Positions 11,136 through 53,300 of a stretch of DNA of 64,000 bases are shown piece after piece. The notes beneath the pieces were generated by a model that worked only from the letters and a program-made list of their open reading frames with translations, was not told the DNA's origin and did no database searches. Position 1 is the first letter of the stretch. Every line of letters begins with the position of its first letter. The translations under genes and the position numbers were made by a program. Source of the DNA: Eucommia ulmoides (taxonomy: Eukaryota; Streptophyta; Magnoliopsida; Garryales; Eucommiaceae); the NCBI GenBank assembly GCA_016647705.1, contig CM028326.1, positions 21,653,901 through 21,717,900 on the forward strand, given 5' to 3'.

Positions 11136-11719
11136 ACAGTTTTTAAAATGGACTTATTTGGTCAAGAACTCAAATTATATTATAATGTTATTTTCAAAAA
11201 AAGTCTTTGTCAGGCAATTAATTATTTGTGGATTCTCTCTACTCACGTGATGTTGCCTCAAAATTGGGATGTGTTCTAAAAGCTACAACCCCTCCATTGA
11301 ATCCACTATTTTCAAATTTACTTGAAAATTATACAATACACCACTGAATATTTTGTATATTTTGTGTGGAAACAAATTATTATATATTAATAAACAATTG
11401 GTATAAGTTGTTTACATAATAAATAGTTTAAAAAAAAAAAATCTGACAACAAGTCTATTTAGGCTTATTTACAAGAGTCGAATGTCACGAATATAAAATT
11501 TAAAAAAAAAAATCGTCGTATACCCGGTGTTTCGAACACCGGATATACGACGTACTATTTTTTTTAACTTGGGTTTTGGAATCTTGGGTTCTAATAACCG
11601 GGAACTCTCAGGTAGCACTAAGTTTGGAGCCAACCTATTCCAATAAAAAAAAATATTAAAGTATAAAAATTTTAAAGTATAAATTGTATAATAAAAAGAT
11701 GAACAACTCTTAGAAATAG

Positions 11720-12043: not shown

Positions 12044-12552
12044 ATGGCTCTTGTAAAAGTCCCAAAAGCCTCCCATTCGCCTCCCGAATTCACCTACGAT
12101 GTGTTCCTGAGCTTCAGAGGCGCGGACACCCGCAAAGGTTTCACGGATTACCTCTATTTATCTCTGAGGCACGCCGGGATCGAGACGTTCCGAGATGACG
12201 ACGAGATCGAGCGGGGGGAGGGCATCAAGCCGGAGTTGCGGAAGGCAATTGAGCAATCGAAGATGTCGATTATTGTCTTCTCCAAGGACTACCCGTCTTC
12301 CAGGGCGTGCCTCTACGAAGTCGAGATGATTCTCCGCCGGAGCAAAAGCTTTGATCACGGGATTTTGCCGGTGTTCTACGATGTTGATCCTTCTGATTTG
12401 AAGAACAGCGCGAGAGCCCTCGCGGTCGAAGCAGAGGAACTGGAGAGGCATGAATCACGTAGTGAACGGGCGGAGAGAATGAAAGAATGGAGCGCGGCGC
12501 TCAAGGAGATTGCCAGTGTGGCCGGGATGGTTTTGATGAATCAAGCTGATAG
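12044..12552 (+). CDS. TNL exon 1: TIR domain
   Basis: Encodes residues 1–170. The fold opens YDVFLSFRGADTR (18–30), continues with FRDDDEIERGEGI (49–61) and SIIVFSKDYPSSRACL (75–90), and has the FYDVDPSD motif at 111–118. The catalytic glutamate of plant TIR NADases corresponds to E92 in CLYEVEMI and is present. The usual Trp two residues before the Cys is Ala here (SSRAC). The family is known to cleave NAD+ when assembled, so this TIR looks competent, by inference. The donor is GATAG|GTAATT; its first bases read on as AGG TAA, so an unspliced message stops after residue 170. Confidence 0.92.
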
Positions 12553-15500
12553 GTAATTTACTCTAGAGACCTTTAATCCTTTTAGACCTCTTTGTCAAAT
12601 TATTTCAAGTCATATTTAACAACTGATCGTGTGGTAATATTCATATTCATATAAGTTTCCATAAATTAGAGACCAACCATTTTTCATTGGGATAATTAGC
12701 CATAGTTTGTTTTAATTTTAATATGGGTATAATCCCTTTATTATATTTTAGCTTATCTTTTAGTATGTGGTCAATGATCCATTATATCTCTAGTCAAATA
12801 CCTTCAATTAATGTTTGTATGGCTTGGTCACCTGCTAGTGTCCCACTGTCAAACCTTAGGCTTCCGGTCACGAAATTCAGCCACTGTCAGCTAATTTTTT
12901 TTTTCCTTCAATTACATGTAACTATTTCTTTTAGTTTATTTTTTTTAATTATATGCTACAATTATTTTTAATGTATTTTTAGTTACGTGTATTTTTTAAT
13001 TACATTTTTTAGTGTATTTTTTAGTTACATTTTTTAGTGTATTTGTTAGTTATATTTTTAGCAAATTTTTTAGTTACATTCATGTGATTTTTCAACAATC
13101 GGCAATTGAAAAATTAATTGAATGTAACTAAAATAATTTAATAAAAATATGATACTAAAAAATTAGCAATGTAAGTTATGTAACTGAAAAAAATTCCGGC
13201 AACGAGAGGTTCGGCGGCCGGCGGTGGCCAAAATCTAACGACTAGAGTCTAGTGGTCGGTAGCAGTTGGCACCGCAACTTGTTGGTAGCCCTAATTGAGA
13301 TGTTAGTTTGCTTGAACTCTAAGAGATAGTATATATATATATATATATATGGGCTTTGGCTCAGTATGTGAAACCCTAATCTCACTAGGAAAACTAAACT
13401 CTAATCTTAGAAGGCTACCAAGGTTACCCTAATCACCTCTTATATATAGATTCCATGTATATCTCTGTAAATGCAATTTTCTCATATATCAATATAATCA
13501 TGTTATCTCAATATTAAGCCTCTCAATTATTCTGACATAGTATTAAGAGTCAATTCTTCCTAGTCATGTTCCTACTAAAATTTCGCAAACTTAATCTTTT
13601 CAAGTCTTCCGCTGCGTTGCTATCAACAATTGCGTTTTCATCATTCAACAAACCAACATTGTATTCACCATTACCATCACGCTCATTTCATAAAAATTAG
13701 TTCAACGACACCAAAATCGCTGCAATCGGGCACTGAACGTGCCACCACGCACCGCCAACAGTCCCTCCCTCCACCGTCGTGACCTTTGTTGACTCCTACA
13801 GGCTTCAATATCAATCCAAATTCAACACCCACCTTACCATCATAGCCGTCTTGATGAGACGATTCCAACACCACCAAAATTAGACATCGTGCGAGCCCTC
13901 ACATGCCAAGTCGGCCCTATACGTGTCGTCGTATCATCCAACATGTCAGCGCCATGTATCAGCCACATTAGTGAAAGAAACTGCCAAGTCAACACCACAT
14001 TTGTTCCTCTCTGCCACGTCACCAACTCGCAATGGATCAACTTTCTTGACTGGTTTAGGATGTTTTTGACCGGTTTTTTACAAGGTTGGACTGGTTCCTA
14101 GAGTTTTTTGACCTCCTGATTCTATTTCTGGGATCTATTTTGTGATTTGAGACTCACATAAAATACTTCATTTTATATTTGTATAGTTTCTACGTTGGTT
14201 CACCAATTTTTTGACCAGTTCTTGAAAATCTAAAATTGGTTCTTGGATAATTTCAGCATTTTGAATCTTTCTGTTGCCATGGTCTACTCAATTTTGAATC
14301 ATACAGTATAGCTCATTTTTTGTTGTTGATTCGGTTCATTACGGTGGTTTGACTGGTTCAAGAGTTCATCAATCGGTTCTTCACAATAATAGACCAGTTC
14401 CTGGATAATTCAGCATTCTGAATTCACCTGTTGCCTTGGTTTCTGCAGATTTATATCACACAATATACTTTGTTACATATTGTTAATCTAATTCAACAAC
14501 GACGTCTAAGAGTTGTTCTTTCTCAACCGTTCTTATTGCCAAAAAAGGTTCTGGTCTTGCATCCACTGTTGTTTCCATCTCTATTGAGAATATAGTTTCA
14601 ATCATCAATAACTTTCTCTCCGATTATGGTACAAACTTTTCCCTTGCCCTATCACTTACTACAGATAATTCTTCTTGGTTCCTTGATTCTGCCTATTGCA
14701 ATCATATGACTTCTGATCCCAACATCTTCTTATCCAAATTATCCGCTATGAATGTCCCTACCATTAATATTGTTGATGGTTCTCATATGCTTATTACTTA
14801 TACCGATCAAATTTATACTTCACATCTTTCTATTCCTGACACATTTAATTTCAAAACTCACGTTAAATCTCTTATCTATTGGCCAACTCTGTGAATTGGG
14901 ACTTGATGTGATATTTTCTAATAGTGGCTATCGTGTGTAGGATTCTCGGACAAGAAAAACCCTTGAGACTAGTCATAAAGTTGGATATCTATTTGAACTC
15001 AGTAGTTATGCAACCTCACCACCATCCTCATCACCATCATCCTCTTTATCACCACCACCACCACTACTACTACCACCATCCTCATCATCATAATCATCAT
15101 CACCGTCATTTTATATTTGGCATTCTCGGATAGGTCACACTTCATCTAGCCTTTTTAAATTACTTATCTCTAGTGGTCAATTAAGTTCAGTTTAACATGA
15201 GTCTTTTAATTGTATTCATCGTCAACTTGCAAAATAATAAGTTTTACCTTTTAATGATAGTCAGTCTATTTCTCTCACACCCTTTAATCTAGTGCATTTT
15301 GAAGTATGGAGGCCTTTTCCTCATACAACAATGGGTAATTCTCGTTATTTTGTTATATTTATAGACGATTACTCTTGATATACATGGATATTTCTTATGA
15401 AGAATAGATCTGAACTATTCCAAATACATTCTGATTTTTCTTCTATGGTTAAAACCCAATTTTCTCAAAATATTAAAGTTTTTGTTCAGATAATGCAATG

Positions 15501-18500
15501 GAATACAAGAATCATATTTTTCTCAGCTTGCTTCACAAAAATTACACACTCCCCCACCTCTCGTCTTGAAACCTCTCAACAAACTGGACGAGCCTAACAC
15601 AAATATAAATACATTCTTGGCACAGTTCGTGCCCTTATTATTTCTTCATCTTGTCCTGAGCGCTTTTGGGGTGAGGTTGCCCTAATCGCAATATACACTA
15701 TAAACCATGTCACTTTCACTACAATTCAGCTTCAGTCTCCATTTTAGCGTATTTTCGATAACACTCTCACTTACTCTGATCTCAAAGTCTTTGGTTGCGT
15801 TTGTTTTGTTGTTCTCAAACCACATGAACACAACCAGTTGGAACCAAGGGCCTGTCTATGTTGTTTTCTAGGATATGCTCTTGAACATAAAGGGTATCAA
15901 TGTTGGAACCCCATCTCTAAAACTTTTCGTATCTCTCGTCATGTTATTTTTTGGGAACATCAAATATTTTCTTGAGGAAATTTATATGCATACCCCTCCT
16001 GCCCTAACTACTCCTCAATACAAAGTTTATCACCTTTGCCTTGCCCTATATGGTTTCAAATGTGCTCCGTGTGTTTGGTTTTCAAAATTTAACACCACCA
16101 TCCACTAGTTCGGGTTCACATCCAGCGCTAATGATTTTGCCTTGTTTCTTCGCCGAACTAACAACAGTGTTATCTTCCTCCTATCGTATGTGGACGATAT
16201 GATAATTACAGGAGATGATCTACGTTCAATCTCTGAATTCAAAAAATTTCTCATTGGTCAATTCGAGAGGAAAACACCTTAGCAAGCTTACTTATTTTCT
16301 TGGTCTAGACGTTTCAACTGGTTCAGATGGATACTCTCTCTCTGGGCAAATATGCATCTAACCTTCTTTCAAAAGCAGGTATTACTGACTTTACTATTGC
16401 CAATACTCCTCTAGAGCGGAATATCAGACTTACTCTACTATATAGCCTCATATCCCGGACGTCACTCTCTATCAACAACTAGCTGAAAGTTTGGTATATC
16501 TCACGGTTACTCGCCCGGACATTACTTATGTCCATCAAGTCAGTCAGTTCTTGTCCGTTCCTCGGATCACTCATTACTTGGTATATCTCACGGTTACTCG
16601 CCCTCAGCTCCGGACCGACCTGGATGGATCTGATATTGAGCTATCTCACCGATGGGATGCTTTTGAAAAACCAAGCTCATTCCCAGAAAATAAGGTACCA
16701 AACAGCACGGTACGCCCTTATTAACGGTGTTCTATACCGCAAGTCCTTCTCAGGTCCGTACTCCAGATGCCTCCGACCTGAGAAGGCCGACTACGTTATG
16801 AGAAAAGTTCACGAAGGCATTTGTGGAAACCACTCGGGTGGCAGGTCGTTAGCTCGGAAACTGCTCTTGAACGGGTACTACTGGCCCAAAATGCTCGAGG
16901 ATGCGGCGGACTTCGTTAAGAAATGTGACAAGTGCCAGCGATTCGCCGCGCGCCCCCATGCCCCGCCAACCGAGCTGGTGTCGATGTCCAGCCCGTGGCC
17001 CTTCGCCCAGTAGGGGATCGACCTCCTCGGCCCATTCCTTCATGGGATCGGCCAAAAGGAGTTCCTGATCGTCACCATAAATTACTTTACCAAATGGGTA
17101 GAAGTTGAGCCCCTCGCCAGAATCACCAAAGAAAGGATCCGAGACTTTGTCTGGAAGTGAATGATTTGCTGGTTTAGCATCCCAAGAGCCATCATCTCGG
17201 ACAACGGAAAACAGTTCGATAACGACCTTTTCACCGAGCTGTGTACCAGGCTGGGGATCAAAACACACTTCTTTTCCCCAGGTCACACCCAAGCTAACGG
17301 CCAGGTTAAAGTCACCAATCGGACTATTTTGCAAAATATGAAAACCAGGTTGGACAAATCCAAGGGGTTATGGGTGGAAGACCTGTATTCGGTGTTGTGG
17401 GCTTACCACACAACATCCCGGACTCCAACTAGCGAGATGCCTTTCGCAATGACATTCGGCTAGGAGGCCGTCATCCCGGTCGAGATAAGCATGCCTTCGC
17501 CCTGCACTGCGCATCCGTTCGATCGAGCTGAAAATAAGGCAGGTATGGCTGCTCAACCTTGACTTGCTCGAAGAAATTAGGGAAATGGCTCAGATTCATC
17601 AGGCCGCCTATCAACAAAGAACAACCCGATACTATAATCGCCGAGTGCGACCTCGATCCTTTGATGTAGGCGATCTCGTCCTGAGGAAGGTCACACTGAC
17701 CACCAAAGACCAAAGCGTCGGAAAGCTAGCACCGAGCTGGGAAGGACCTGACCAAGTCACTTGAATAGCTCGGCCTGGAACCTACAACTTGGAAAATAAA
17801 GAGAGGGTACCTCTGAGACACCCCTGGAATGTCGAGCGCCTGAAGCGCTACTATCCGAGAGAAGAGCCGACTCCTTAGACTTGTCAAAAGATTTTTTATT
17901 TTTGATCTTAGAAAATTGTAATAGAAAAGTTCGAAATTAATGAAAAATGGTGTTTCGGTTGAAAAAACTTTCCAAATATTCCAAATTCTCCAAGTGTAAA
18001 GGCGGAGGCAGGCAGCCCTCCGTATCGAGAGGCTGGGGACGAGCCATCCTCCAGCTATTTCTCCACGGAAAGACGAAGACTAGCTATCAATCATCAAAGG
18101 CGAAGACGAGCAGCCCTCTGTGCTGAGAGGCCGGGGACGAGCCGCCCTCCAGTCATTTCTCCACGGAAAGACGAAGACTAGCTATCAATCATCAAAGGCG
18201 GAAACGAGCAGCCCTCCATGCCGAGAGGCCAGGGACGAGCCGCCCTCCAACCATTTCTCCGTGCGGAGGTAACTCTCCCGCCAAAGAAGTAGTCTGGCAA
18301 AAGACTAGCTGTCACGCCGAAGATAGGGATAAAACAACCTCATTTCGGGTCGGCCCCCTCCAGTAAGATGACCACAAAAGCTCGGCAAGCCGAGCTCCTA
18401 TGGTGGCCTGGGGGGTAGGACGACCAGCCACGGGTTCAAAAATCTGGAAATGTTTTGGGTTAAAAAACACGACTGTTGTGTGTCTCAATCATGTTAATTG

Positions 18501-21500
18501 TGTTGCATAGGAGACCAAAAAGTGTTGGTGTGTAATCAAATGGCCAGTGACACATCTCCCTTGCATGGATAGCAAGTTCCCGAAAATTTTCGAAGCATTC
18601 GAACCAAGTGGCCAAAACCGTTGGGCTGAAGACGGACGCCAGTCCGCAATGACCAGGTCGGTATAGCCACTGCTAGGCTATTGAAGGTCGCCTCGGTTGT
18701 TAAATGGTTACTGTTTAAGTTATTTGTGGTCGGTGACATTCATCAACTTGCAGTGATTATTAAATCGTATTTGTGAGTAGTGAAAATTAGTGACTGGCTA
18801 GAAAAGATGGAACAAGCAGAACCAGAAAAATAAAGCATACAAAACACGATTGGCAAAAATGAGGAGTTCTATTCATTGATCAAAATTTTGTGCATACAAA
18901 AAATTGGGACTTCTGCCCATAATTACAAACTCGCTCCTCGCCGGGCCAAACAAAAAATAAAATAAAGAAAAAAGAAAAGCAAAAAAGTTGCAAGTTTTGT
19001 TGTTTGGCTCGGCTGAATGGAGGCCTACTGCTGGAAGGGATCTGGGCCGATCTGGCCTTCGCTGACCACAGTGGCAGCAACCTGGCTTCCCGACAATCCG
19101 CCATGGCTCCCAAAGGGTCTTCCAGGCTCAGCATCTTGCTCGGCCTGGGCCTCTTGGATGTCTTCTTCGGAGGGCTCGAGCAAGATCTTCATGTAGTCGA
19201 CTTTCTAGAACTGACGCCGAACCAAGTTTATCGCTCCCTTGAACCCTAGCTTGATCACACTCCTCCCGATCCTGTCCCGGAGCTCATTGAACTCCTGGTT
19301 GCTCTTCCTGTTCGCCACGGCTCCAGCTCAGTTGCCCGGCTTTCCCTCATCGCCTGAAGCTAATCGAGAACGATTTGCTCGGCACTCCTTGCTCTTGCCA
19401 GGTCATCCTCGGCCCACTTGGTTAGCTCCCCATCCTCTTAGCCAGTTGCTCATTCTCGCCCCGGAGCCTTTCCAACTCCCTCTAGTACTCATTCAGAGGG
19501 TCGATGTGCTCAGCCCTCCCTTTCTCCAACCTCTCACACTTCTGATTGACTTTGTGGAAGCATAATCCCAGCTCCACCAAATAGTAGAGGGCCTGCAAGG
19601 TCGGCAAAGAAAAGCGTTAAAGAAATAAAGCTTGAAAGACCAGGTTCAAAAATCTCACTGAGGTGAGAACTTACTGAAAGCTGATACCAATAGAGGTCAG
19701 AGGCGAGCTGACCGTCGGATTTATCAGCGAATTTTGCTCGATCCACTGAGAGAGTGGTCTAGTGGATGAAAGTCGAAAGGATATCCGTCGTCTCCAACAT
19801 ACCCTTGTCACGTCAGAGCCCGGTCATTACAACAAAAGGCTCCACCTTCTCCTTCTCCTGTTGGGGCTCCTCTCGTCTCGGCTGGGCCTCAGCTCGGCTC
19901 TTTTTTTGCTACCCGGCCGTGGCCTCAGGTGCACCTGCCTTTCACTTCTCCATGTCTTTCCTCTCAATGGGAGTCGAGCTCTCTGCATCCACAGCTATCG
20001 CCACCGACCTAGCCGTGGCTAAGGTTGTAGGCCTCCTTGGTACCGCCGCTCTTCCTGTTGTTGCAGGCCTGGCATGGGCCGCTTGAGGCGCCGGCCTAGT
20101 TGATGGAGTGGTAGGAATCGGCTATGTCCAAACTGCCTAGTCCATCGACCCTTCCTAGGCCGGCTGGTTGGCCCCAGCCCCTTAATTGACATCCTGTAGG
20201 AGGAGAAACCAAAAAGCATTAGCCAACAGGAGAAAATGTCAATTGTGAATAATTTGACGAGCTGGGGTAGAAAAACTTATTGTTCTTAGAGTCCTCCTTT
20301 AAGGTTAGCTCTGGCAGAGACAAGTTGCTCCAGAAGTAGAGGTCGTACAAGCACAACGAGATAAGAGCGCTAACGTCATGAAATGGGTTGCTGAAGATTT
20401 GATCTCTCTGTGCGAGAATCTTCGGGCTCGGCTCGCGCTTCTTCGAAACTGAAAGAGCAAACGAAAGCAACTCAAAAGAATTGACCGAGGAGGAAAATAT
20501 AAAAGTTTCCAGGCTAAAAAGCTTACCCACGGTCCCCTAATGCCTCTGGACCGGGAAATCATATTGCGGCGTCGGGTCGGCCTCCCATCTGGTCTCAGCC
20601 AGAAAGAAGAAGCCTGACTTCCAGTCCTTGATGGAATCAGCGTAGCCCTTGAGGAATTTCTGCCGGGCCGAGATATAGCACCAACAATTCCCACCGGGCA
20701 TGGACTTCGCTAGGAAGACGGTGTGAAATAGCTCGAGGGTCGAGGTAATACCCTCGGCCAGGCAAATCACGTGGAAAGTCACAACCATGCATATGCTGTT
20801 GGGGGCGAGCTGTGACGGACACAACCCGAGGTCCTAGCAGACCTCCCTTACCTAGGGGAAGAGGGGGAACCGCAGGCCACCCTGCAGCTGTTGATCATAG
20901 ACCGTTATAAACCCCTCCGATGGGGCGCAAGCCCGGTCATCCTCCCCGGGAACGCGCGTCTCCACTAAGCCGGGGATCGCATACATGGAACGGAGATCCC
21001 GAACGGCCTTCTCCGACAGGTCGGATTTTACCCGCCAAACCCAAGCTTCCTGAGGGACCTCACAAATCAATCGACAAAAGGTCGAACCCGCCCTAGGGGG
21101 ATGACCGGATGTCAACGGCTGGGCTTCCACCTCCTGAGAGGATATACCCTCGGTACGAGCTCCACGATTGGACTCGTGCCGAGCTCAGTCCCAGAACCCC
21201 TAGATGAGCCCGCTTCGCTCCTCACTCTCATCCGCCAAGGCCCGCTAGGCATGCCAGGAGGTTGGGAGGTCCCTGCTCCGGCCTCCTTCTGGGCCCTTTC
21301 AGAAGAAAAGGTCATCCACTGGACGGCGACCTCTGGCTCGTCCTCCGGCTCATCGACCTCGGTCGCAGACGAGCTAAGCTCGATCTGCAAGACCAGTTCA
21401 GCCACAATCTCTTCAAATCTGAACGGGCTGTACCCCGACGAACAGGACTCAGACATAAAAGACATGAAGAAAAAGGAAAAAAGAAAGAGGAGTACCATGC

Positions 21501-24500
21501 TCTGAGGTCGGGTGGAGCTTTAACGCTACTTTGGTGAAGAAATGCGAAGGAATGAAGTGTCTATTTATAGAGGGGCCGAGAAGTTGAACTATCGCGACGA
21601 TCGGACAGTTCGCGGAGCATCGATTCACGCGTCATCAGCCACGTATCGCACATCCGGTCAATGTGTTAGTCAAACTTCCTAAGGAAGCCAGAAAGCACCT
21701 GATCGGGCTAGTCTCTCCTATGTTGTCGGTCTATCCTTCTGTGATGTGCCGTCTCGGCCCCGAAACCCTGTCCTCCATCAGCCCGGCTATCCGTTCTCGA
21801 GCCGTGCATCATCAAAACCCTCAGCGTCTCGTCCCATTTCCACGCTAAAGCTTGGGGGGCAACTAATGTGGGTAAAATTGGACTTGCTCCACGTGTCTGC
21901 CACCTAGATCAAATTCACCACGTCACCAGCGCCACGTCAACAACGGCCTGATCAGCCCGATGAATAAGACAGCCTTTGATGCCTACTCAAGTCGGTCAAC
22001 ATGAAGCACTCGGATCTCCAAACAGCGATCTCCTCGAAGTATCGCCGCAAAGGGCAGGTCGGCGCGTACAGCCTGACCTGCATCTCGGTGCCCAGGCCGA
22101 CCTGTCTCTCTTAACAGGCTTGGCCCATGGGCTTCTCCATCAAACAGTCTGAAGGCCCAGGCCCATAGCTATAATCCGTTGTGTCGCCCTCGCGCCTGAT
22201 TACTTAGCACTAAACCGAGTTTAAGGCCCTAATCTTGCGGAACGCTAATCACTCTTTTGCCTATAAATAGGAGGTTTCATCAACACATTTCGGGAGAGCG
22301 AGTACACACGACAGATCGCCTAAACAGGTCGAGGTAATAGTTTTCCTCCAGATGACCTAATTTCTTCCCCCCGAGCTCTTACTCTCACACCAGGAACACT
22401 CAGGTCTGTCCTATGTGCAGGTGGAGCTCAGCCCGAACATCGGCCTGGAGAATAAGTCATCGGAACTGACTTCTTGGCTTGGACGACAAGTCGGACAACG
22501 CCCGTCCAACCGTGATCGAGGACTCCAGCAAGGACGAAGAGACCCCCCCCATAGATCAGCTGCAACTCACATGAAGAGTAACCGGACCATACTACTGGTC
22601 GGACCAATTTCCGACACCAACACTCATTCCAAAGCAAGTATCACTGACTTTACCGTTGTCAACACTCCTCTAGAGTCGAATATCAGACTTACTCCACTAT
22701 ATAGCCTCCTCTCCCGTACGTTACTCTCTATCAACAACTGGTTAGAAGTTTGGTATATCTCACGGTTACTTGCCTGGACATCACTTATGTCCATCAAGTT
22801 AGCTAGTTTTTATCTGCTCCTCGAACCACTCAATACTTAGTTGTTCTTCGCATTTTTGGGTATGTCAAGGGCACCTTATTTCACAGACTTCATTTCTCCG
22901 TCCAGTCTGTTCCCACCTTACAAGCTTATTCTGATGTCGACTGTGTCGTAAATCTTACCGACAGACGTTTAACCACTGGTTATTGTTTTTTCATGGGTAA
23001 CTCTCTCATTCCCTGACGTAGTAAGAAACAAACCGTTGTTGCCCGCTCCAGCACTGAAGCTAAATACTGTGCCATTGTTGATGCAACATAAGAATTACTT
23101 TGGTTATGTTGGCTCTTCGCTGACATGATAGTCTCCTCCCTCACTGCCACTGTTTTACTTTGTGAGAGTAGGAGTACTATTCAGATCGCCCATAATGATG
23201 TTTTCCACGAGCGTACAAAACACATCGAGTCCAATTGCCACTTCATCTGTCACTACATTCTCTAGAATACTATTCTCCTTCAACCCGTTAGTTTAGCCAT
23301 TCAAACAATAAATATTTTCACCAAGGCTCATCGACCCAAACGCTTTCATGGTTTCCAAACTCAAGTTCACATATTCTTTATCGCCTTAATTTTAAGGGGG
23401 GATGTTAATATATATATATGGCTCTTAGCTCACTATGTTAAACCCTAGTCTCACTAGGAAAACCAAACACTAACTCTACCAAGATTACCCTCGTCACCTT
23501 TTATATAAAGACTGTCTGTATTACATATCTCTGTAAATGTACTTTTATCATATATCAATATAATCGCTCAATGTTCTCTTAATATTTTACCTCTGAATTA
23601 TTCTAATAAAACCAAAACTGAACTAATTACTTGCTTTTGAATTTTTTATTAATTTAGTGCAATTTTTGGGAAATCCCACAAACTACCCCTTTTTCATTTT
23701 AGGTACTTAATTGGTCAAGCAGAAACACTTATATTACGAGTTCTGTAAACGAATATAAGCTCAATAGCCACATACAAAGAGACGACATATGAATATGACT
23801 AATTAATAAAATTGTATATGTTGGGGTTGTTTGGTTGTTCAACTTTTAATATAATTTTATTAAACCTCTATTCAATCAATTTGAACAAAATTTTGATTAG
23901 TCATACTCACGCTTGTTGAGCGGAATGAATTTGGGAAAAATTAGATAGCATGGCAAAAGACGCATATGAAGAACAAATCTTTGTAAAATTATTTTTAGTG
24001 TGAATGATATCTAAAGATTTCTGAAATTCTGTGGTTTATACATATGTTTTTCATTCTTTAAATAGAATTTTGTAAGAGCTATGATATAGTAATTTTATAC
24101 CATAAGGCTCTACATTGCCCATTATATAGCCATAACGGTGAGCTAAATTTTGAAGAAAATTGTCTTAATAAACAGGCTAATAAAAAGAAGGGATTTTTAT
24201 TATTTAGTTCTTTGTTAATATTTGATCATTTGCCTATAGTAAAGGGACATATTTGCCCTTTATATAACTAAATAACCCAAACCATAAAACCTAATTTCAC
24301 TTGGGAAGCTGCCGCTGCCTCTCTCATTCCCTCCCTCTGTCTCTGCAAGCTCGGTGGTGGGTTCGTGTGTTCATTGCTAGCTAGCTCGGAAGTGGGTTCG
24401 CGCGTCAGTGTCGGCGAACCGCCGCACCACCGCAACTCGTGGGTGCCAAATCCAAAATTGCCACAGACGTAGATCTCGTCAATGGGTTCTTCTTTCATGC

Positions 24501-27500
24501 ACTGCTTCGCCCTCCATTTGAATATCGGTGGCGCAATGTTGCTATAGCAGATGATGAATCCAAATCCCGTCAAAAACACCCTAACACTAACGATTTCTCT
24601 CTCTCTTAGCCCCTTTCTCCTCTCCGAAACACAGTTGAATGTTCAGATTTTCGGATATGAATGTTCCATTTTCCCCCATTTTAGCCTCCACTCTAGGAGT
24701 TCCAAATCCGAATGTTCACTTTTCAGATCTAAATGTTCCGAAACCATTCTCTAGGAGTTTCCAATCTGATTGGTCCTCCATTTCGGAAATTAAATTTTCA
24801 GATCTGAAAGTTCATTTTTGATTTTGGTGGACGTTCATTTTTGTAATTTGGTGAATATTCTGGTTTGTGTTTTCGTCGTTTTTTAGAGTTTTTCAAAGGA
24901 AATTTTCAATGTACTTGGGTTGCTTTTTTGTGAATGTTCGTATAGGGGTTAGATTTGTTTTGATTTTTCATTGTGAATATTCATTTTTGTTTGATTTGTT
25001 CATATCGATTTTTTCAGATCTGTTTTTTGGGAGAGTTTTGGTTCGATTTTTATTGTGAATATTATCGCAAATCTGTTCAGATTTTGAATGTTCATATGAA
25101 ATGTGTTTTCATTGATTTTTTTATTAGGTTTGGTAAATGTCCATAAATACTGAACATATTTTGCACTAACCGTTTGACATTTATATGAACATTCACTATT
25201 TTTCATTTCTTGCCCAAAAAATTCGAAAATTATCTCATTAGAAAGAGGATTTTGTGAATATTAATTTGATTTTTTTTGTTCACTTCTTAATCAACGATTT
25301 CGATCACAGTAGCCCTTTCTTTGTGACTGGTTTTGATGTTTTTGGAAATTGTAACTTTTCATAAATACTGGCCGTTGCATAGCACTCAATGGCAGTAATT
25401 TGTAAATACAACATCAACAGGGGACAAATGTTAGAGACTATTTTCTAAGAACTAAAAAAATTATTTTCCTAGTTAAGGGGTTCATTTTATGAGTTGTACA
25501 TCTCTTAGGGTCTATATAATAAAAATCCCTAAAAAGAAAAGTGAAGTTATGGTCCACATGAGCTAAATAGGAAATATGACCTAAATACTAACTCAAATAA
25601 TGCATTAATGGAAATATTAAATACTCCAACACCCTCCCCTCAAGTAGGAAACAATAGTAAGGTAGTGTCAGGACAACTCTGATAGTAGGACAGTAGCAGG
25701 TGGCTGCTGGATAGGAGGTTCGGCTCCATGGGAAAGGCGTCGCAAGAAGGTGGTGAGGCGCAGGGGGCTAGGGTTTTCCTCCGCCCCTGCGCCTCTAATT
25801 ATTTTTGTCTTTTTTAGCTCTGATACCAAAAAAGATTTTGGGGAGGATGAGAATAATTTTATCTAATGCAATATATCCTATACAATAAGGCTCTATACTC
25901 CCTATTATATAGCGATGATGTTGGGCTGAATTAGGAAGTATCGCCGTAATAAATAGGCCAATAAAAAGAAAACGAAATCTATCAAATTAGTCAACATAAC
26001 CTATATAGAAAATTACCTAAATACTAACTCATAGATAATGCATTAATGGAAATAATAAATATTCCCACACTTTAATTAATATAGTTTGTTGTTAAGGTGC
26101 AATAAATATCCTTTCTTGTTTTTGGCCATCTATTGTGGAGTTTATGTATGTGTTTGGTTTACTAGATAAATAGTATTTTGTTCATTTGAAACCCCTTCTA
26201 TACAAATAAAAGCTCTGGATATAGTAGGAAATTTGTGTGCAAAGGTGTTGTGAAAAGTTTTAAAGATGGTAAAAGCACACACACATAGACGCCAAAAAAA
26301 AAAAACAGTTGCACACTAAATGGGCTCACTTATAGACCCTTCTTTATATCTAACATGTTTGTCTGTCTTTCTCATATGACTCGAACATCTAGGCACGAGG
26401 GGAAGTTCATCATGAATATCATTAAAGTAGTTGAAGGAAAGCTAACTTTCAGGATCCTACGCCTTGAGCGTCACCTAGTTGGAATGCATTCTCGAGCTAA
26501 GAAAATTATTTTGTGGTTAAGGGATTTGTCAGCCAACGTAGGCATGTCGGTGATATGTGGAATGGGTGGCATAGGGAAGACCACCCTTGCCAAATTCGTA
26601 TATAATGCATCCAGAAGTAGTTTTGATACTTGCAGTTTCCTGGAAAATATCAGAGAGGTTTCTAAAGAACCCAATGGTTTAGTTCGTTTGCAAAGTCAAC
26701 TCCTTGCAGACATTCTTCATAACAAAACGATAAGAGTACACAGTGTTGAGGATGGACTTGGGAAGATCCAGCGTGCCTTGTCGAAAAAGAAAATTCTTCT
26801 TGGTCTTGATGATGTGGAGGAGGTGGACCTTTTAGATGCAGTTTTTGGTATATGGGATTGGTTCTCTCCGGGAAGTAAAATTATCATAACAACTAGGAGA
26901 GAGGGCTTGCTGGAGGCTTATGAAATTAATCAAGTTTATAGGGTTGAAAAGTTGAATTATGATGAATCGCTTGAGCTTTTCTGTTGGCACGCTTTTGGAC
27001 AAAAACATCCCCAAAAAGGTTACATGGAGCAAGCAGGAAGGTTTGTGCACCATTGTGATGGGCTTCCTTTGGCACTAAAAGTTTTGGGCACTTCTTTATT
27101 AAGGAAAGGCTTACATGTATGGGATAGTGCTTTCAAAAAATTGGAATCTATTTCAGACAATAAAGTTCTAGACATGCTTAAAATAAGCTATGATTCTTTA
27201 CAGGATGACCATGATAGAAATCTATTTCTCGACATAGCTTGTTTCTTTGTTGGGAAAAACAGAGATGACACAGCAACTATTCTGGATGGATGTGAGTATT
27301 ATACAGCAGTAGGGATCCAGAATCTCATCGATAGAAATCTCTTGACAATTGAAAATGATAAGGTGAGAATACACCAGTTGCTTCAAGACATGGGAAGACA
27401 TATTGTTAGCCAAGAATCTAAGTATCCGGAGGAGCATAGTAGACTCTGTCATCACAAAGATTCCTTCAATGTTCTTGCGGAAAAAACTGTAAGGAAAATA

Positions 27501-30500
27501 TCAGCTTTACATGCTAATGTGCATGCATTATTTATTTTTTTGTCTAAATTTTCTGATTTAGATAACTAACTGGTTTGTTTCCTTTGAATGTTCTGAAGGG
27601 CACTACGAGAATTGAAGGCATCATCCTTAACACTAGAATGTTGTCGAAATCCAATGAAGTTGTCTTTGAAACCAATGCTTTTAAAGAGTTGCGGAACCTT
27701 AGATTACTCAAGCTAAGTTTCATACAATTTTCAGGAAGCTATGAGGTTTTTCCTAAGAGATTAGGATGGTTGTATTGGCATGGCTTCAGTTTAAATTCAA
27801 TACCCCGTGTTTTTCCTCTAGAGAACGTGGTTGCTCTTGACATGCGCTATAGCAACTTGAAACAAGCCTGGAATGGAACTAAAGTATGCCACTCTTTTCC
27901 AAAGTTCCTTTGCATTATGTGTATATATATAATTCTATCTATGTTGTTTCAAAGAACCATATCAAATGGTATGCTTTCAACAACTGCCTAAAATTGATTT
28001 TCCTCTCTTTCTACCTAGGTTTTTGGATCACTGAAAATCCTCAATCTCAGTCATTCCCCATTGCTGGAAAAAATTTTGGACTTCTCAAGAGTCCCCAATC
28101 TGGAAAAACTGATTGTCAAAAACTGTCCAATTTTGGCCTATGTTGATGAATCCATTGTGAATCTAGATAGACTTTTGGTCTTGAATCTTAGAGATTGCAA
28201 GAAGTTGAGGAGTCTTCCAAGAAACATCCACATGGTGAAGTCTCTCGAGCAACTGACTATCTCCGGTTGCTCGAATCTTTTTGGAGTTGCGGATGAGCTT
28301 AGGAAGATGGTATCTCTGAGAGTTTTTCGCGCTGATGGAATTGTAGCACACCATGTGTTGTCTACAATGAGAGAGGGTGCACTACCATGGTACGGATGCT
28401 TCTTGCCTTGGGTACAGAAAGCAACAACCAGCCCTAAAATATCATGGGATTCCTTGCCAAGCACTTTGGTGACAATCACCCTCGCTAATTCCAAGCTCAC
28501 AGATGATGTTTTTCCCGAGAATTTCAGTGGGCTCCCCACGTTGCAGAATTTGAACCTAAGTGGAAATTTAATTCGTGAGTTGCCGAATTGCATTAAAGAT
28601 CTTACCAATCTCAAGACGCTTGATCTGTCATGGAACAAAAGGTTGCGGCGGATTGAGTGGCCGGCGGTTGCCGCCGAAAATCTGATTGTCACAGAATGCA
28701 GGTTGCTTGATAAAATAACGTACAAAACGGAAATGTCTTTTCAGAGGATCTCGCACGGTGCATGCATGAAGCTCGATTACGTTCAGCACGGCTTCAAGAT
28801 ACAAGCAGTGAGTAATACCGATGTTCAACTAATTAATAGTATTGGCTTCTTTGGCTTGGAGTCCATGGCAGATCTTGAGGCAACCATTGTCAATGTCATT
28901 GTATGGAGTAATATGAAGCGCCCTATCCAGGTTCTCTCTCTCTAGTCTCTATATTTGTATACATATCTGTTTGTATGTGTTAATAGATGTAGATTGGCCT
29001 TTGCACATATATGTAGATGGCCCATTAGGATAAACCATATACCATTTGCACATATTAATACAATCGTCTCATATTCTCTATTAATATTCTATGTCCCAAT
29101 TATTCTAACATGGTATCAAGAGTCAATCTTCCTTCGGCCTCTCCCTACTAAAATTTTCATCATTTTTCTTTCCAAATCACCGTTGTCGCTGCCTTTAAAA
29201 CATTCTATAACCATTTAACAACTCAACACAAAATCCACCATCACCATCAGACTCACCTTGAAACAACAAGTCCAACGCCACTGCGGAACAGCCCAACCAT
29301 TGCCTTACGCGCTCCTATGTGCCACAAGAACACTCCACATCGTTGTCATTGTTGTTGGCTATACAACCACCACCGTTGCTCCAAAATGAACAAAACACAC
29401 ACCACCATACTTGTCTCCACAAGATGAAGCCAACACTAACGACCTCACCTCAAATGGACACATGGCATGCCCTTATGTGCTGCCAGTATCCTCTGTAGCT
29501 CCACTATGAGTTCTCCACGTGCTCCTGTAGCCATGCCAACGACATGTCAACACCAAATCACTACCTCGTTTGCGCGCACGTCAGCACGAGTCACAACATG
29601 AGTCACTGCCACATCAACAGCTTGCCAATGCCACGTTAGCGCTACGTAATCACCTATCTTGACTAGGTACTATCAGTCAACAACCATGTCAGTAGATTGC
29701 CATGTCAGCTGCCACATTGTTGAATTCTCTGTTGTTCAGCTTCCACGTAAGCTCTACGTTGTCACTACCACGTCAACACTAGTCAATGCCATATCATCTC
29801 TAGTCAGCGCCACCTTAGCCCTGGTCAACTTGACTGTTGACTCATTCAGTGTTGGTTCAAGATAGTTTTTTTTTTCACCGTTTCATAACTTTTTTTATCA
29901 ATTCTTGAAGGTCTAAAATTGGGTCCTAGTTATTTTCAGCATTCTGAATCCATTTGTGACCTCGATTTATTCAATCTTGTATCACACAATATTGTTAATT
30001 TAGTTCACTACGGTCTTTTGGCAGGTTCAAGGATTCATTTGTCGATTCTTCACGACATTAGACCGCTTCCTGGAAAATTTTGAGCTCCTAATTGCATCCA
30101 CAACCTCCATTTTTCCAGATTCATATAACACAATATACTTTCTTGTATATTCTTGATTTGATTCAAAGATGATGTCCAAGCCTTGTCCTTCACCTTCCGT
30201 TCTTGCTGCCAATAAAGGTTTTGATCCTGCCTCTACTGTTTCCATCTCTATTGGGGATTCAACTTCACTCTTCAAAAGTTTTTTCTTTGATTCTATTACA
30301 AATTTTTCCTCAGCCTATTCACTTACTACAAGTAATTGTTCTTGGATATTTGATTATGCCTCTAGTAATCATATGATTTTTTTATTCCAATATTTTGTCA
30401 TCAAAACTATCTGTTGTAAAGCTCCTAGTATTCATACTACTGATGGTTCTCATATGCGTGTCACTTACATCAATCAGATTTTTACTTCACACCTCTCTAT

Positions 30501-32603
30501 TTCTGACACTTAATTCCAAAACTCAATTTAAACCTCTTATTTGTTTGGCAACTCAATGAATTAGAACTCGAAGTTATATCTTCTAATAGTAGTTGTCGTG
30601 TGCTAGATTCTCGGAAAGGAAAACAATTTGGGATTGGGTTTATAATTGGACGTCTATTTGAGCTTAGTGATTTGCACCTTCCAACTCAATCTCCACCACC
30701 GTCACCCTATATCCCTCCGTCCACTTGTGCAACTCCACCACCACCACCACCATACATATCATCCTCACATGATTCATCTTCTCTCAACCTTTGACATTCT
30801 CGGTTAGGTCATGCATCAATCTGACGTATCCGCATTTTAACCTTTAGTGGAAAATTAGGGTCTGTATCTACCAAACATCTCGATTGTCTTCCATGTCAAC
30901 AAGCTAAAGAACACGTAATACCTTTTCACAATAGTGATTCAGTCTCTCTTGCACTTTGACCTAATTCACTCTAAGGTTTGGGGGACCCTCACCTTCTACC
31001 ATAGGGGGATACAAATACTTTGTTATATTTGTTGATGATTACTCTTGGTATGCCTAGCTATACCTTAAGCATAAACATTCTGAATTACCTCAAATTTATT
31101 TGGATTTTGTTGCCATGATTTAAATTCAATTTTCCCCTAATATCAAAACCTTCAAATCTACCAATGCCATGGAATACATGGACTAGTGTTTCACTGCCAC
31201 CCTTCGAAAACATTGCACACTTCCACATAAATCTTACTCTGGCACTACTGTTCAAATTGGTTGAGCTGAATGTAAACATCGATATATCCTAGATACTGTC
31301 TGTGCACTACTCATTTCATCCTCGTGTTCGGAGTGCTTCTGGGGAAAAGCTGCTCTCACTGTCGTCTATACCATTAATTGGGTCGCTTCATTTACCATTG
31401 GTAATCTTTTCCCTTATGAGAAGTTGTATAGAGTCTCTACTAATTACAACCTCTTAGAAGTCTTTGGGTGTGTTTGATTTGTCCTCTTACAACCTCATGA
31501 ACATACCAAACTTGAACCTCAACAAAATATTTTAGGGTACATTTTAGGGTTATTTGACTTTTACCCCATTCTCCCCATTCTACTATGACCTTGTATCACT
31601 TCAATTGACCCCCTCTTACTTCTCAAGAAAATATTGAGCCTTTTTTATTTTGTTTTCGAAAATTTTGAATCCTGATTTTGTAATCAGTTGTTGAAAATTG
31701 TGAAAACTTGTTTGATTTAGTTTTCGAAAAAAAAAATTATCTATAATGTATTAAAAAATTGAAAAGTAAAAGTGATTTGACTGATTGAAATATGATGCTG
31801 AAAAAGAGAGATAATGATGACGTTTATTAGATAAATACAATGTAAAGAAATTTTGTAGAGAAATAAAAAGTAAATATATAGATAAAAAAGTTGAAATTAA
31901 ATTTATAAAAAAAAATAATATCAAAAGTAAATGATGTGATATATTGAAAATTGTTATGTAAAAGTGTTTTTGAATTGTACTCTCAAAGAGAATTAGTAGT
32001 ATTTTGAACTTTTTAAAATAAAAATTACTACTCGAATTGCCAACCAAACATCACCATTACTACTACTATATATTTTTGATAAAACTGTGGTTTAATTTTT
32101 GCAAGATACTGTATGAACATGCTATATTCAGCACTTACTTTCCGGGGAGGGAAGTTCCGAACTGGTTTAGCCACAAGATGAACGGCTCTGCATTATCGTT
32201 CATGGTGCCATCGTTCCCTCTCCTCCGCCCCCACGGCTTGAATTTGTGCTTAGTGTATACGATTCCGAGGATGAAAGACTTTTTGCCGATTCCAATACGG
32301 GTAAGAATCATTAACCGGAGCAAGGACCTGGTGGGTGTGTATGAACCGAGGTGTTACGGTGTGCCAGAAGCCGATGGCAGCGACATGGTGTGGCTTGTCC
32401 ATATAGGGTCGTTGGTCCTATTTGAGACAGACGATGAACTGGATATAGCTTTCGACATGATGATAGAGGGGGAAATAAAGGAGTGTGGGGCACACGTTTT
32501 GTACTATGACGAGGAGGAAGAACTGTATCAATACTACAACACGTTGTTGTTGTCATGGGATTCGGCTATGATGATCGAACAACTCGGATTGTCAGGTATT
32601 TAA
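12044..32603 (+). CDS. TIR-NB-LRR immune receptor (TNL), five exons
   Basis: Intracellular immune receptor of the TMV-resistance-N type. Exons: 12044–12552, 26393–27488, 27599–27883, 28019–28930 and 32106–32603. They total 3,300 nt, 1,099 residues plus a TAA stop. Junction phases fit without forcing: exon 1 ends after two bases of an Arg codon, exon 2 supplies the third, and the later introns are phase 0. Each intron has GT and AG ends. Domain order is TIR (about 15–165), NB-ARC (about 200–520), LRR (about 540–915) and post-LRR/C-JID (935–1099), the usual length and five-exon plan of the family. The ATG at 12044 starts MALVKVPKAS just before the TIR fold; an in-frame ATG at 11960 would add 28 residues unlike any TIR protein. 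Unusual points are the size of introns 1 and 4, a Gly in kinase-2 and a degenerate MHD. Expression is unproven. Confidence 0.9.
12553..13300. other. TNL intron 1, left part
   Basis: Host intron sequence before the copia insertion. It is AT-rich, with a run of TTTTTAGTTACATTTTTTAG-like short repeats near 12890–13100. A short GC-rich patch lies at 13195–13300. Nothing coding or element-like with clear borders was seen. Confidence 0.4.
16372..16580 (+). repeat. 209-bp copia segment, left copy of a flanking duplication
   Basis: This RNase H-region segment recurs in direct orientation at 22631–22839, on the far side of the gypsy part. Both contain TGACTTTAC, AATATCAGACTTACT, TTTGGTATATCTCACGGTTA and TTATGTCCATCAAGT. 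A 25-bp piece of it (16490–16515) is repeated again at 16578–16602, where copia sequence turns into gypsy sequence. Confidence 0.8.
16603..22622 (+). mobile_element. Ty3/gypsy (Tat-lineage-like) 3' part nested in copia A
   Basis: Parts present in order: a piece with the integrase zinc-binding motif (H…C-x2-C near 16810–16935, CDKCQRF), the integrase core (near 16980–17460, with GIDLLGP, FTKWVEVEP and ISDNGKQF), the integrase C-terminal region to about 17880, a long spacer, an antisense additional-ORF block (18880–21500), a purine-rich tract CTTGGGGGGCAA and one LTR (about 21867–22622, starting TGTGGGTAAAATTGG and ending GACACCAACA). The 5' half and 5' LTR are not in the window. The integrase phrases and the antisense block suggest the Tat/Retand/Ogre group (inference). 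Broken, with several interruptions. It is younger than copia A, which it splits. Confidence 0.8.
18880..21500 (-). other. antisense additional-ORF block of the gypsy element
   Basis: Minus-strand coding-like stretches lie between integrase and the 3' LTR. Phrases such as LAPNSICMVVTFH, SMPGGNCWCYISARQK and DWKSGFFFLAETRWEADP recall the plant retrotransposon extra protein whose relatives carry W-K-x-x-F-F. A proline/glutamate-rich N-terminal part and a lysine-rich patch are also visible. Such antisense extra ORFs between pol and the 3' LTR are known from some Tat-lineage elements. It is a fossil with several interruptions. Assignment rests on remembered family phrases only. Confidence 0.5.
22631..22839 (+). 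repeat. 209-bp copia segment, right copy of a flanking duplication
   Basis: Direct repeat of 16372–16580, immediately after the end of the gypsy LTR (22622). From here the copia element continues through RNase H to its 3' LTR. A plain retroviral-type insertion would duplicate only about 5 bp, so the 209-bp copy needs another explanation. Confidence 0.8.
24085..26069 (-). mobile_element. short non-autonomous LTR element (TRIM/copia type) in TNL intron 1
   Basis: On the minus strand: 5' LTR from 26069 to about 25829 (TGTGGGAATATTTATT…), primer site TGGTATCAGAGC at 25828–25817, only about 185 bp of internal sequence, a purine tract CTTGAGGGGAGGG at 25644–25632, then the 3' LTR from 25631 (TGTTGGAGTATTT…) leftwards. 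The 3' LTR is split by the 24190–25529 insertion. Shared LTR phrases include AAGGCTCTA, ATTATATAGC, AATAAAAAGAA and AATGCATTAATGGAAATA. No coding parts. The outer left end is approximate. The LTRs differ noticeably, so it is old. Confidence 0.7.
24190..25529. mobile_element. Mutator-type non-autonomous element nested in the short LTR element
   Basis: Flanked by a perfect 9-bp duplication TAAAAAGAA (24181–24189 and 25530–25538). Terminal inverted repeats are GGGATTTTTATTATTTAG on the left and, inverted, GGGATTTTTATTATATAG on the right. The 1,340-bp body has no recognised protein. It contains scattered copies of GAATGTTCA and TTCATTTTT and a GC-richer start (24300–24560). A 9-bp duplication points to Mutator transposition. 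Confidence 0.8.
26393..27488 (+). CDS. TNL exon 2: NB-ARC nucleotide-binding switch
   Basis: Encodes residues 170–535, starting HEGKFI just as in other TNLs. The P-loop GMGGIGKTT is at 226–234. Kinase-2 ILLGLDDVEE lies near 304–313, with Gly307 where Val is usual; both Asp residues are kept. RNBS-B is SKIIITTRRE, GLPL is CDGLPLALKVLG and RNBS-D is LFLDIACFF. The MHD motif near the end of ARC2 reads I496-H497-Q498 (VRIHQLLQDMG). The acceptor is ACATCTAG|G and the donor AAAACT|GTAAGG, giving EKT–GTT across the junction, where relatives have EKN–GTE. Confidence 0.92.
27599..28930 (+). CDS. TNL exons 3 and 4: leucine-rich repeats
   Basis: Exon 3 (27599–27883, residues 536–630) and exon 4 (28019–28930, residues 631–934) are separated by a 135-bp intron; a 110-bp intron precedes exon 3. 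Exon 3 starts GTTRIEGIIL and contains LGWLYWHG and VALDMRYSNLKQAW, the usual first LRR block. Exon 4 carries irregular repeats such as LKILNLSHS, LEKLIVKNC, LLVLNLRDCKKLRSLP, LEQLTISGCSNL, LQNLNLSGNLIRELP and LKTLDLSW. Both exons are open throughout and keep frame. The donor is ATCCAG|GTTCTC. The LRR part confers recognition in this family; the ligand is unknown. Confidence 0.9.
28978..31535 (+). mobile_element. Ty1/copia element B in TNL intron 4, same family as copia A
   Basis: An LTR-like start (about 28978–29110, TGTTAATAGATG to ATTATTCTAACA) is followed directly by the primer-site-like TGGTATCAAGAG. Then come a non-coding-looking leader, a protease-like part (near 30300–30510, with SNHM), a proline/CCA-rich linker (30690–30760), gag-pre-integrase and an integrase part to about 31535. 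Layout and wording match copia A part by part, including the leader, the TCTTGCTGCCAATAAAGG-like phrase and the low-complexity linker. No 3' LTR was found here. Old, with many interruptions. Confidence 0.8.
31536..32105. other. TNL intron 4, right part
   Basis: AT-rich intron sequence between the copia remnant and the exon 5 acceptor. It starts with TTTACCCCATTCTCCCC-like wording seen at the ends of some plant MITEs. I could not delimit an element. Confidence 0.35.
32106..32603 (+). CDS. TNL exon 5: post-LRR / C-JID domain
   Basis: Encodes residues 935–1099 and the TAA stop. The acceptor is TTTTTGCAAG|ATACTG and phase 0 joins KRPIQ to ILYEHAIFSTYFPG. The motif FPGREVPNWFSHK followed by SALSFMVPS is the hallmark of the C-terminal jelly-roll/Ig-like domain of TNLs, which in characterised receptors contacts the effector together with the LRR. 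An acidic YYDEEEE stretch lies near the end, as often in this family. The exon is 3.2 kb from exon 4 because of the copia insertion between them. Confidence 0.9.
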   Translation: MLYEHAIFSTYFPGREVPNWFSHKMNGSALSFMVPSFPLLRPHGLNLCLVYTIPRMKDFLPIPIRVRIINRSKDLVGVYEPRCYGVPEADGSDMVWLVHIGSLVLFETDDELDIAFDMMIEGEIKECGAHVLYYDEEEELYQYYNTLLLSWDSAMMIEQLGLSGI

Positions 32604-50300: not shown

Positions 50301-53300
50301 GGAGAGATTGCAAGACAACAAAAATTAAAGAAGAAAAATATGACGGTTAAAAAAGGGTTAATTGTCTTTTACCACCAACCAATACTTTAATCTTGTTTCA
50401 TTTTGTCCCCTCTACTTTAAAAACCTACATTTTACCCCCTTTTACTTATGATATATTGGAAAACTTAATTCTTTTTTTTTTTTTTGTGCTTGTTTAACTT
50501 AATGAAATATGCGAAAAATGGATGAACTGAAATTTTCAATCTAAATTTAACATGAAATGGACAAAACTACCCTTTATATTAATTTTAATATTTTGTCGTT
50601 ATTAAAAATATAAGAAAAAATGAAGTAGAAAGAGAAAGAGAGCTAGAGATAGAAAACGTTAGTTTTCTCTTTTTTTTATCTTTAAATATTAGATTTAAAT
50701 TAAAAAGGTAAATGATAAATAAGTCATTTTATATTTTTTTGAATAAAATGTGAGTTTCTCCCTTCGATTAAGAGTAGAAGAATGTGGTGTGTAGATTTTC
50801 AAAGTAGAGGGATTAAAATGAAACAAAACCACAGTACAAGGGGATAAAAGGCAATTAACCCAATAAAATATAAAAAAAAAAAAATCTTGGATGATAATTT
50901 GTATGGTACATATAGATCACGACAAACCATCAATATAAACTGCGATAGAAGTAAATGTATAGCATATAATCAACAATTAACAAATCAACAAAAATGTAAA
51001 AAGTTGGCATAAGATTAAGATGGTAAGAAACCGAAGAAGCAGTTAATAGTACTTACTTCTGGTAATAGTTGCTTTGTTTAAGTGCATAAAGCTCAAAAAG
51101 ATGTCTCGGGTTTGGCCCCAGCACCTCAACAATCACATTCCACTACAACATCAACAAGCATACTCGATTATTTGCTCAAAGTAAAATCTATCATCATTCA
51201 AAAGATCAAATATACAAAGCCACAAAAGTAGGCATAAGTAGTTCACTCATCAGGAATAGCTCACCTCTGAGGGACTGAAATAATCTGAAACAAAGTGCAT
51301 ATTGGCTTCTTGAGGCGTCCATCCAAAAGTCTGCGGGTAAAAAAACAAAAAAAGTGAAGAATGAGACATCCACACATCCCCACCAAAAATCTGCAAGTTG
51401 AGAAGAACAAGATATACCAAGCTCTATGTGAACAACTTATACCCCCACCGTGACAACCTTTTGAAGAAGGAGAATTGAGACAATGACCGATAAAATCATA
51501 TAACCATGAACCAGAGCCAAAAGACACAAAACAACTCTAGAACCCCCACCCCTCTAACCTTTCAAAGGAGAAGGCAATAACAAAGAAAAGCATATAAAAA
51601 CCATGAAAAAGTGCCAAAAGTGAAATGCATGCATTCTGAGAGGCACCACAGACATAGCAAAATGGTCTGCCAGCTTACCTCACGGGAGATAAAGATGTCC
51701 GGAAATCCAAAATCCATGTATGCTCGATAAGAATAGTAGCTGCAGAATATCTGTAAATTTCAAAATCCTGAATAATTCAAAGATACAACTGTATAAAAGA
51801 AAACTTATGAACATGCAGGTTTAAACAAGTAGAAGGGACATTGAGCTCAGTTTAGACAAACCATCATCTAGCTTTAAAAAAAAAAGGTGACAACAACTTG
51901 GCAGTTATTACTTATGCGCTTTGAAGTATTGAAAATGAGATGAAACTTATGTCCTTGGTAAATCAGTATGTCAATTGAAATGACAGGATAGTTTCCATGA
52001 AAAGAGGAAGAAATGCAGCCTTGTCATGTAGGTGAAACTGGGAGAATATGAACACTAAATTTATGCTTTTTGTAGATATTTGAAGTAGAATCATGTGATA
52101 TGGTAGTACTAATCTCTCTCGGGGTCTATTTTGGGCTAAATGGCATTTACGTAGGGTCAGATTTATATGCACACGTTTTTCATTTTTCTTTTTTCTTTTT
52201 TTTTTTTTTAATTTTTCATGTTGCCTATAGGCGCCATAAATAAAACTCAAATCTGGAACACAAGGCAACATTAAATTTTCCAAATTTCGCGCTTGCTGAA
52301 ATTGCTTGTCTTTTATCTCCTTCCTCCCCTCCTATGCCATATTCTTCGTCTACTAGTATCAGGTCTTTCGTCCACCTATCATGTTTTCTACCTCCTCTCC
52401 ACTCGTGGGACTTTTTTATTTACCTCTTTTATCTTCCCCTTTATTGTACCAACACCCCATTTGGATGAAACAAGGGCGGAGGGAAGAAAGAGGAGTACCT
52501 ATGGAGAGCGATGGAATCATATCCTAGTAAAGAATAAATTGTAAATGGTAGCAACAAAACCTCCTTCTTACTGTGTGTTATTTCACTACTATATAAAATA
52601 ATATGGCACAAAATTAACTATCAGATGTATGGTGGTGTATATATGAACAATGCCAAGGCATTAATGTCGGAACCAAACATCTCCTATGCTATGACGCACC
52701 AAAAGAAAAACATAATATGAAGAAACAATCGTATTCCAATTGCTAACAGGAAAAACGTTTTGTTTGAATTAAAACGGGTTGAGCAAACAAGAAAAACAGC
52801 CAAACAAGAAAATAATTTACCTATCGGACGTTACAAGAATGACCGGAAGACACCTTTCATTTGCACCCAAAGCTATTATTCTCCATATCAAACTGTCATG
52901 ATACATTGAGGCACAAACGGTTGCATCATCCGTTAAAACCGCATTCTTTAGAACATCGATATTGTTTATGACCAGCTTCGGCTACTCAACACGACATCAA
53001 AAAAATTTAATTAAAAGAGAATGAAAAAATAACGTAAACAGAAACAAAATGGGAAAAAACATATTTTAAAGGCATTTCTTAGAGCACTTGATGGTCCTGC
53101 TATGCTTCTTGGTTTAGTGCGTGCTAGGTTTACCTGAAAATAATCAATTTCAGCAGCAACAGACAACAGTTCCAACAACAAGCAAGGCCAATCCGTCGCC
53201 GAGTTAGCCAAAGACCTTGAAAAACCACCCGTCCGATTCAAATGCGCAATAGCATTAGCTCTCCAACCTTGCTGAACCCTGATGACCTCCTTGGCCAGTT

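Follow-up and report, generated by a model that had tools for sequence, protein, structure and literature searches.

The locus at positions 12044 to 32603 of the window, by which is meant the whole 64,000-nucleotide stretch of Eucommia ulmoides DNA that was analysed, is in all likelihood a single TNL gene (TIR-NB-ARC-WHD-LRR-C-JID, 1,099 aa) whose first intron has been swollen to 13.8 kb by nested transposons and would be removed by splicing to give a ROQ1-like receptor, and this offers the best account overall. A sequence-only reading of the same DNA had proposed a single TNL gene with transposons filling its first intron, and the proposal is well supported by the place and phase of the intron in paralogs, by the existence of a tandem copy, and by the freedom of exons 1 to 4 from indels between the two copies. 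The exon coordinates given in that reading were all reproduced, as were the 13,840-bp length of intron 1 and the phase-2 join AG|G that yields Arg170, while joining and translating the exons confirmed 1,099 residues with a single terminal stop and four GT-AG introns (13,840, 110, 135, and 3,175 bp for introns 1 to 4, respectively). The gene model is as follows:

12044-12552, plus strand: exon 1; TIR, residues 1-169 and two bases of Arg170 (PF01582, 2.7e-36).
12553-26392, plus strand: intron 1; 13,840 bp, phase 2, GTAATT...TCTAG, with TAA in frame at 12554-12556 if retained.
26393-27488, plus strand: exon 2; NB-ARC plus winged helix, from the last base of codon 170 through residue 535 (PF00931, 4.7e-30; PF23282, 3e-19).
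27599-27883, plus strand: exon 3; residues 536-630, start of the LRR region.
28019-28930, plus strand: exon 4; LRR, residues 631-934.
28931-32105, plus strand: intron 4; 3,175 bp, with a Copia-like relic that is 68% related to the one in intron 1, largely common to the tandem copy.
32106-32603, plus strand: exon 5; C-JID (post-LRR) and stop, residues 935-1099 (PF20160, 2.6e-6).

From the N- to the C-terminus, the predicted protein gives profile matches to TIR (2.7e-36; residues 18-183 for PF01582), NB-ARC (4.7e-30), WHD_ROQ1 (3e-19), LRR_8 (2.3e-13), and C-JID (2.6e-6), the scores of the last two both lying above their cut-offs; the P-loop GMGGIGKTT is found at residue 226, within the NB-ARC. 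Its TIR, NB-ARC, LRR, and C-JID domains, together with the phase-2 intron, make the predicted product a member of the TNL family. The top match among solved structures is Roq1 (PDB 7jlv; 1.4e-142, with the best stretch covering residues 16-728), which we take to be a Nicotiana protein, and the domain order and the WHD_ROQ1 and C-JID profiles are common to the two. Residue 92 of the window protein is Glu and faces, in an ungapped part of the alignment, residue 86 of Roq1, presumably the catalytic one. The two proteins differ at the MHD place, where Roq1 reads MHD and the window protein IHQ; across 12 loci, this place reads MHQ in six, IHQ in two, MHD in two, MHH in one, and VHQ in one. A further difference from ROQ1-type TNLs concerns the kinase-2 motif, which reads LGLDDV in the window protein, with a derived G307 at a position that is V in all ten paralogs compared. 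A tRNA scan was empty.

The length of intron 1 was assessed against the spacing of TIR and NB exons across the genome. Pairing of each NB exon with the nearest same-strand upstream TIR at no more than 60 kb, provided that the interval contained no other listed NB exon, drew on 90 of 115 NB rows and 101 of 127 TIR rows and gave 87 pairs (three NB rows were left unpaired), a tally of TIR-NB distance; these pairs are not all independent because some contigs seem to duplicate clusters present on others, the values 278, 284, and 581 bp turning up identically on contigs C7 and C112. The spacing reaches a maximum of 49,060 bp, with nine of the pairs above 10 kb, and the window gene is the eighth longest. 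The statement that TNL first introns usually measure a few hundred bases proved a poor fit to this genome, where spacing has a median of 1,379 bp and is above 2 kb in 33 of the 87 pairs, and the exceptional length implied for the window intron is unsupported, since 18 of the 87 exceed 5 kb and spacing extends up to 49 kb. The longest pairs could be joined remnants of different genes. TNL clusters with very long TIR-NB spacing were observed on contigs C7, C9, C11, C17, and C43. The window gene is, as far as its predicted product tells, an ordinary disease-resistance receptor, and long TIR-NB spacing is common to several related receptors in the genome. Among the open-licence papers listed in literature searches, none is concerned, by its title or the beginning of its abstract, with giant TNL first introns as a class.

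The place and phase of the intron between the two halves match those of the family. In all ten paralog loci with both exons found, some of which are near-identical second copies, the NB exon is preceded by AG and one codon-completing base. The 18 pairs spaced more than 5 kb apart comprise the window gene, its tandem copy, and 16 others; among these others, as read by eye, a GT donor was seen at or near the homologous place in 16/16 and AG|G in 14/16, the match beginning too late in the remaining two for their acceptors to be placed. Paralog matches to exons 3-5 mostly stop at identical exon limits, with the exception of the start of exon 3, which is less well tested because the matches mostly begin 11-22 residues inside that exon. 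At the level of DNA, the exon structure of the model and the homologous place and phase of the intron may be regarded as demonstrated.

The tandem copy lies 57 kb upstream, from C2:21608539 (contig coordinates), and retains all five exons with identical splice sites. Its exon 1 is 98.4% identical in DNA to that of the window gene, its exon 2 carries one TGA, and the alignment of exon 5 between the copies has a gap of 237 columns and, close to the end, another of one base. The duplication unit, which is interrupted by insertions on both sides, and the elements within intron 1 are as follows:

11488-42457, plus strand: tandem duplication unit; other copy at about C2:21607986-21633322, in the same orientation.
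13339-23604, plus strand (apparently sense): old Copia-like LTR element, also in the tandem copy; terminal repeats 13339-13533 and 23408-23604, 78% alike.
16583-22623, plus strand: Gypsy-type fragment inside the Copia-like element, missing from the tandem copy; integrase zinc-binding domain PF17921 (1.5e-10) in the frame 16483-17010.
24190-25529, no strand assigned: element of 1,340 bp whose ends are inverted, with a target duplication of 9 bp, TAAAAAGAA; missing from the tandem copy.

The first intron of the tandem copy measures 7,726 bp and holds the Copia-like insertion at the matching place, whereas the Gypsy fragment and the 1,340-bp element are found in the window intron only. The Copia-like class is a weak call because the Pol_BBD match at 14487-14891 scores 17.8 against a Pfam cut-off of 27 bits. 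That this element was inserted before the duplication may be taken as demonstrated by the comparison of the copies, and it agrees with terminal repeats only 78% alike set against a synonymous divergence of about 0.11 between the gene copies (dS 0.108 in exons 2-4). The window element is without about 680 bp present both in the tandem copy and in a separate upstream copy of the element. A later insertion can likewise be regarded as demonstrated for 24190-25529, presumably a Mutator-like element going by its target-site length: it represents a gain in the window copy because the site in the tandem copy is unoccupied and differs by one base. Once the elements found are subtracted, about 2.2 kb of intron 1 is left.

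The Gypsy fragment, the domain search of which covered its parts outside 18601-20599, has on either side a 218-bp stretch of Copia-like sequence, duplicated in direct orientation (16365-16582 and 22624-22841, 85%). Its insertion as an ordinary LTR element was considered and rejected, given that these flanks are Copia-like; the 218-bp repeats cannot be the LTRs of the inner insertion because the same stretch is single in the tandem copy and in the separate upstream element copy. The duplication looks like a scar of repair or recombination, which fits better than LTRs, and the fragment would have been either gained in the window copy or, through recombination between 218-bp repeats of this kind, lost from the tandem copy. 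A 26-bp exact repeat was also observed at 16491/16578, near the junction of the fragment, and a 98-bp tandem repeat at 17998-18291, within it.

Several further features were observed around the unit. Immediately upstream, 11168-11485 matches the upstream flank of the tandem copy at 90% in inverted orientation. The start of the tandem copy is matched at 84% by 11488-11563, and a near-perfect short inverted repeat was noticed by eye at 11513-11553, 5' of exon 1. In the flank of the tandem copy, C2:21624326-21628893 matches the window at 33.4-36.5 kb twice, so that a further local duplication is indicated there. Elsewhere in the window, the minus strand holds a Copia-like pol remnant at 282-719 (SH3_retrovirus, 5.7e-24) and a 263-codon open frame at 53014-53802 that gave no Pfam match at 0.01.

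ROQ1 and other TNL receptors recognise effectors, oligomerise, acquire TIR NADase activity, and signal through EDS1. By the same token, transcription of the window gene would start 5' of exon 1 and cross intron 1, which would then be spliced out to leave a receptor acting like ROQ1, with effector binding leading to oligomerisation, TIR NADase activity, and EDS1 signalling. Some transcription is likely to end early in intron 1, as reported for Arabidopsis RPP4 and RPP7, which would give a TIR-only protein that ends at Arg170. It is possible, if somewhat doubtful, that this second product is a regular one and that the locus has a dual output, with intron 1 serving as a switch between read-through, which would give the TNL, and premature polyadenylation or retention, which would give a 170-residue TIR-only enzyme. 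Such a switch would be served by the AATAAA at 13140, the sole AATAAA/ATTAAA in 12553-14500, by the apparently sense orientation of the Copia-like element (a weak match), and by the phase-2 donor GTAATT, which puts a TAA in frame right after Arg170. An immediate stop, however, follows any phase-2 GTAA/GTGA donor, and 12 of the 19 donors compared, which include second copies of one locus, have one; the TAA is therefore a by-product of the donor and no sign of selection for a switch.

Precedents for a dual output come from Arabidopsis. Passages of PMC8116057 describe FPA-dependent proximal polyadenylation, in intron 1 at RPP4, that results in TIR-only transcripts from RPP4 and other TNLs, and passages of PMC7529245 describe the suppression by EDM2 of early termination at the intronic COPIA-R7 of RPP7, full-length transcripts across COPIA-R7 being thereby promoted. 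RPP4 harbours ATREP15 in its first intron and ATCOPIA4 in exon 6, according to passages of PMC7529245, PMC8116057, and PMC10241880. Going by the same passages, RPP7, RPP4, and the window gene are alike as NLRs with transposon sequence inside the transcribed unit, and RPP7 and the window gene are alike in having a retrotransposon in the first intron; given that exons 1 and 2 form one unit, the window gene would carry its retrotransposon inside the transcribed unit in the manner of the RPP7/EDM2 type. RPP7, as described there, is nonetheless a CNL with its coding sequence wholly downstream of the element, whereas the window intron parts two coding domains and, compared with RPP7 and RPP4, contains three nested or adjacent elements. 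The Citrus NBS gene Cs9g13310, with introns of 16 kb in a passage of PMC4374887, is comparable as an NLR with kilobase-scale introns, and intronic transposons have previously been reported to accumulate in Arabidopsis and rice resistance genes (PMC10241880).

The coding sequence of the window gene was compared with that of the tandem copy. Between the copies, no indel was found in the 2,802 coding bp of exons 1-4, in comparison with 30 in 1,956 aligned non-coding bp (p 3e-12), and dN/dS was 0.275 in exon 1 and 0.43 both in exons 2-4 and in the ungapped 462 bases that open exon 5. These measures argue for coding constraint over some or all of the period that followed the duplication; dN/dS and the indel contrast are pairwise, and the constraint is not assignable to either copy. 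When the 74 amino-acid differences in exons 1-4 were polarised with ten outgroup loci, 33 looked derived on the window side and 14 on the side of the tandem copy, the other 27 being without polarity. At sites with at least 80% outgroup agreement, 13 changes are derived in the window copy, including V307G (kinase-2) and R324W, versus three in the tandem copy; the window copy is thus intact but faster-changing at conserved sites, an excess that may reflect diversification or early decay. It counts against full receptor function, and IHQ at the MHD place and the gaps in exon 5 likewise weigh against the preferred reading.

The same count of 13 versus three would speak for the window gene being a decaying paralog, with an open frame yet no working receptor, either through kinase-2 or other changes or through a failure to read through intron 1, although fast change is also expected of NLRs under diversifying selection. 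We hold decay to be rather unlikely. The TGA already present in exon 2 of the tandem copy and the two elements confined to the window intron would be in keeping with decay, but 1,099 codons have persisted without a stop or frameshift, dN/dS stands at 0.43 and not 1, and exons 1-4 are devoid of indels.

Divergence is unusually low at the 5' end of the gene. Exon 1 has a dS of 0.037 versus 0.108 in exons 2-4 (Fisher p 0.039), the copies differ at three positions in the 523 bp of 12146-12668, an interval that runs from exon 1 into intron 1, and no difference occurs in the initial 116 intron bases, versus 216 in 1,956 non-coding positions (p 2.8e-6). Purifying selection as the sole keeper of exon 1 was rejected on the strength of the low dS and the identical adjoining intron, and gene conversion over about 12146-12668 is preferred to selection because the near-identity includes neutral sites. 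Recent gene conversion between the copies is likely for this interval, and the low divergence of exon 1 would be partly its product and not that of selection only. A much bolder proposal, which we regard as very improbable, is that in this genome giant TNL first introns, reaching 49 kb, are maintained as a device shared by the whole class, in which heterochromatin between the halves lets the chromatin state set the choice between a TIR-only enzyme and the whole receptor, with gene conversion keeping the TIR exon and donor of this pair near-identical despite the stop in one NB-LRR half.

Still less probable is that exons 1 and 2 belong to neighbouring genes, the first encoding a TIR-only protein and the second an NB-LRR protein expressed from a separate promoter among the transposons. 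The 13.8 kb and two LTR-like repeats that separate the exons, and the early ATG in exon 2 (Met177), would suit two genes, and the Arabidopsis annotation has transcripts starting upstream of RPP4 exon 2, a start described in a passage of PMC7529245 as unconfirmed by its authors. The two-gene reading was nevertheless rejected because donor and acceptor sit at the place and phase of the family and the tandem copy retains both. Among the matches listed in the genome-wide TIR search, there is no further TIR between exons 1 and 2. An assembly error fusing pieces of different TNLs, to which a genome with clustered and repetitive TNLs might be prone, is barely credible in view of zero N in the window and in the 50 kb upstream and of the same exon order and shared intron sequence in the tandem copy.

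For the TNL family in this genome, tight intron limits in annotation could lead to a miscount of TIR-only and NB-LRR genes, because long TIR-NB introns are common among its TNLs, with 18 of the 87 pairs above 5 kb. The window gene and its tandem copy together give the relative order of insertions into one intron, and they offer a natural experiment on whether elements within an intron shift the output towards TIR-only transcripts.
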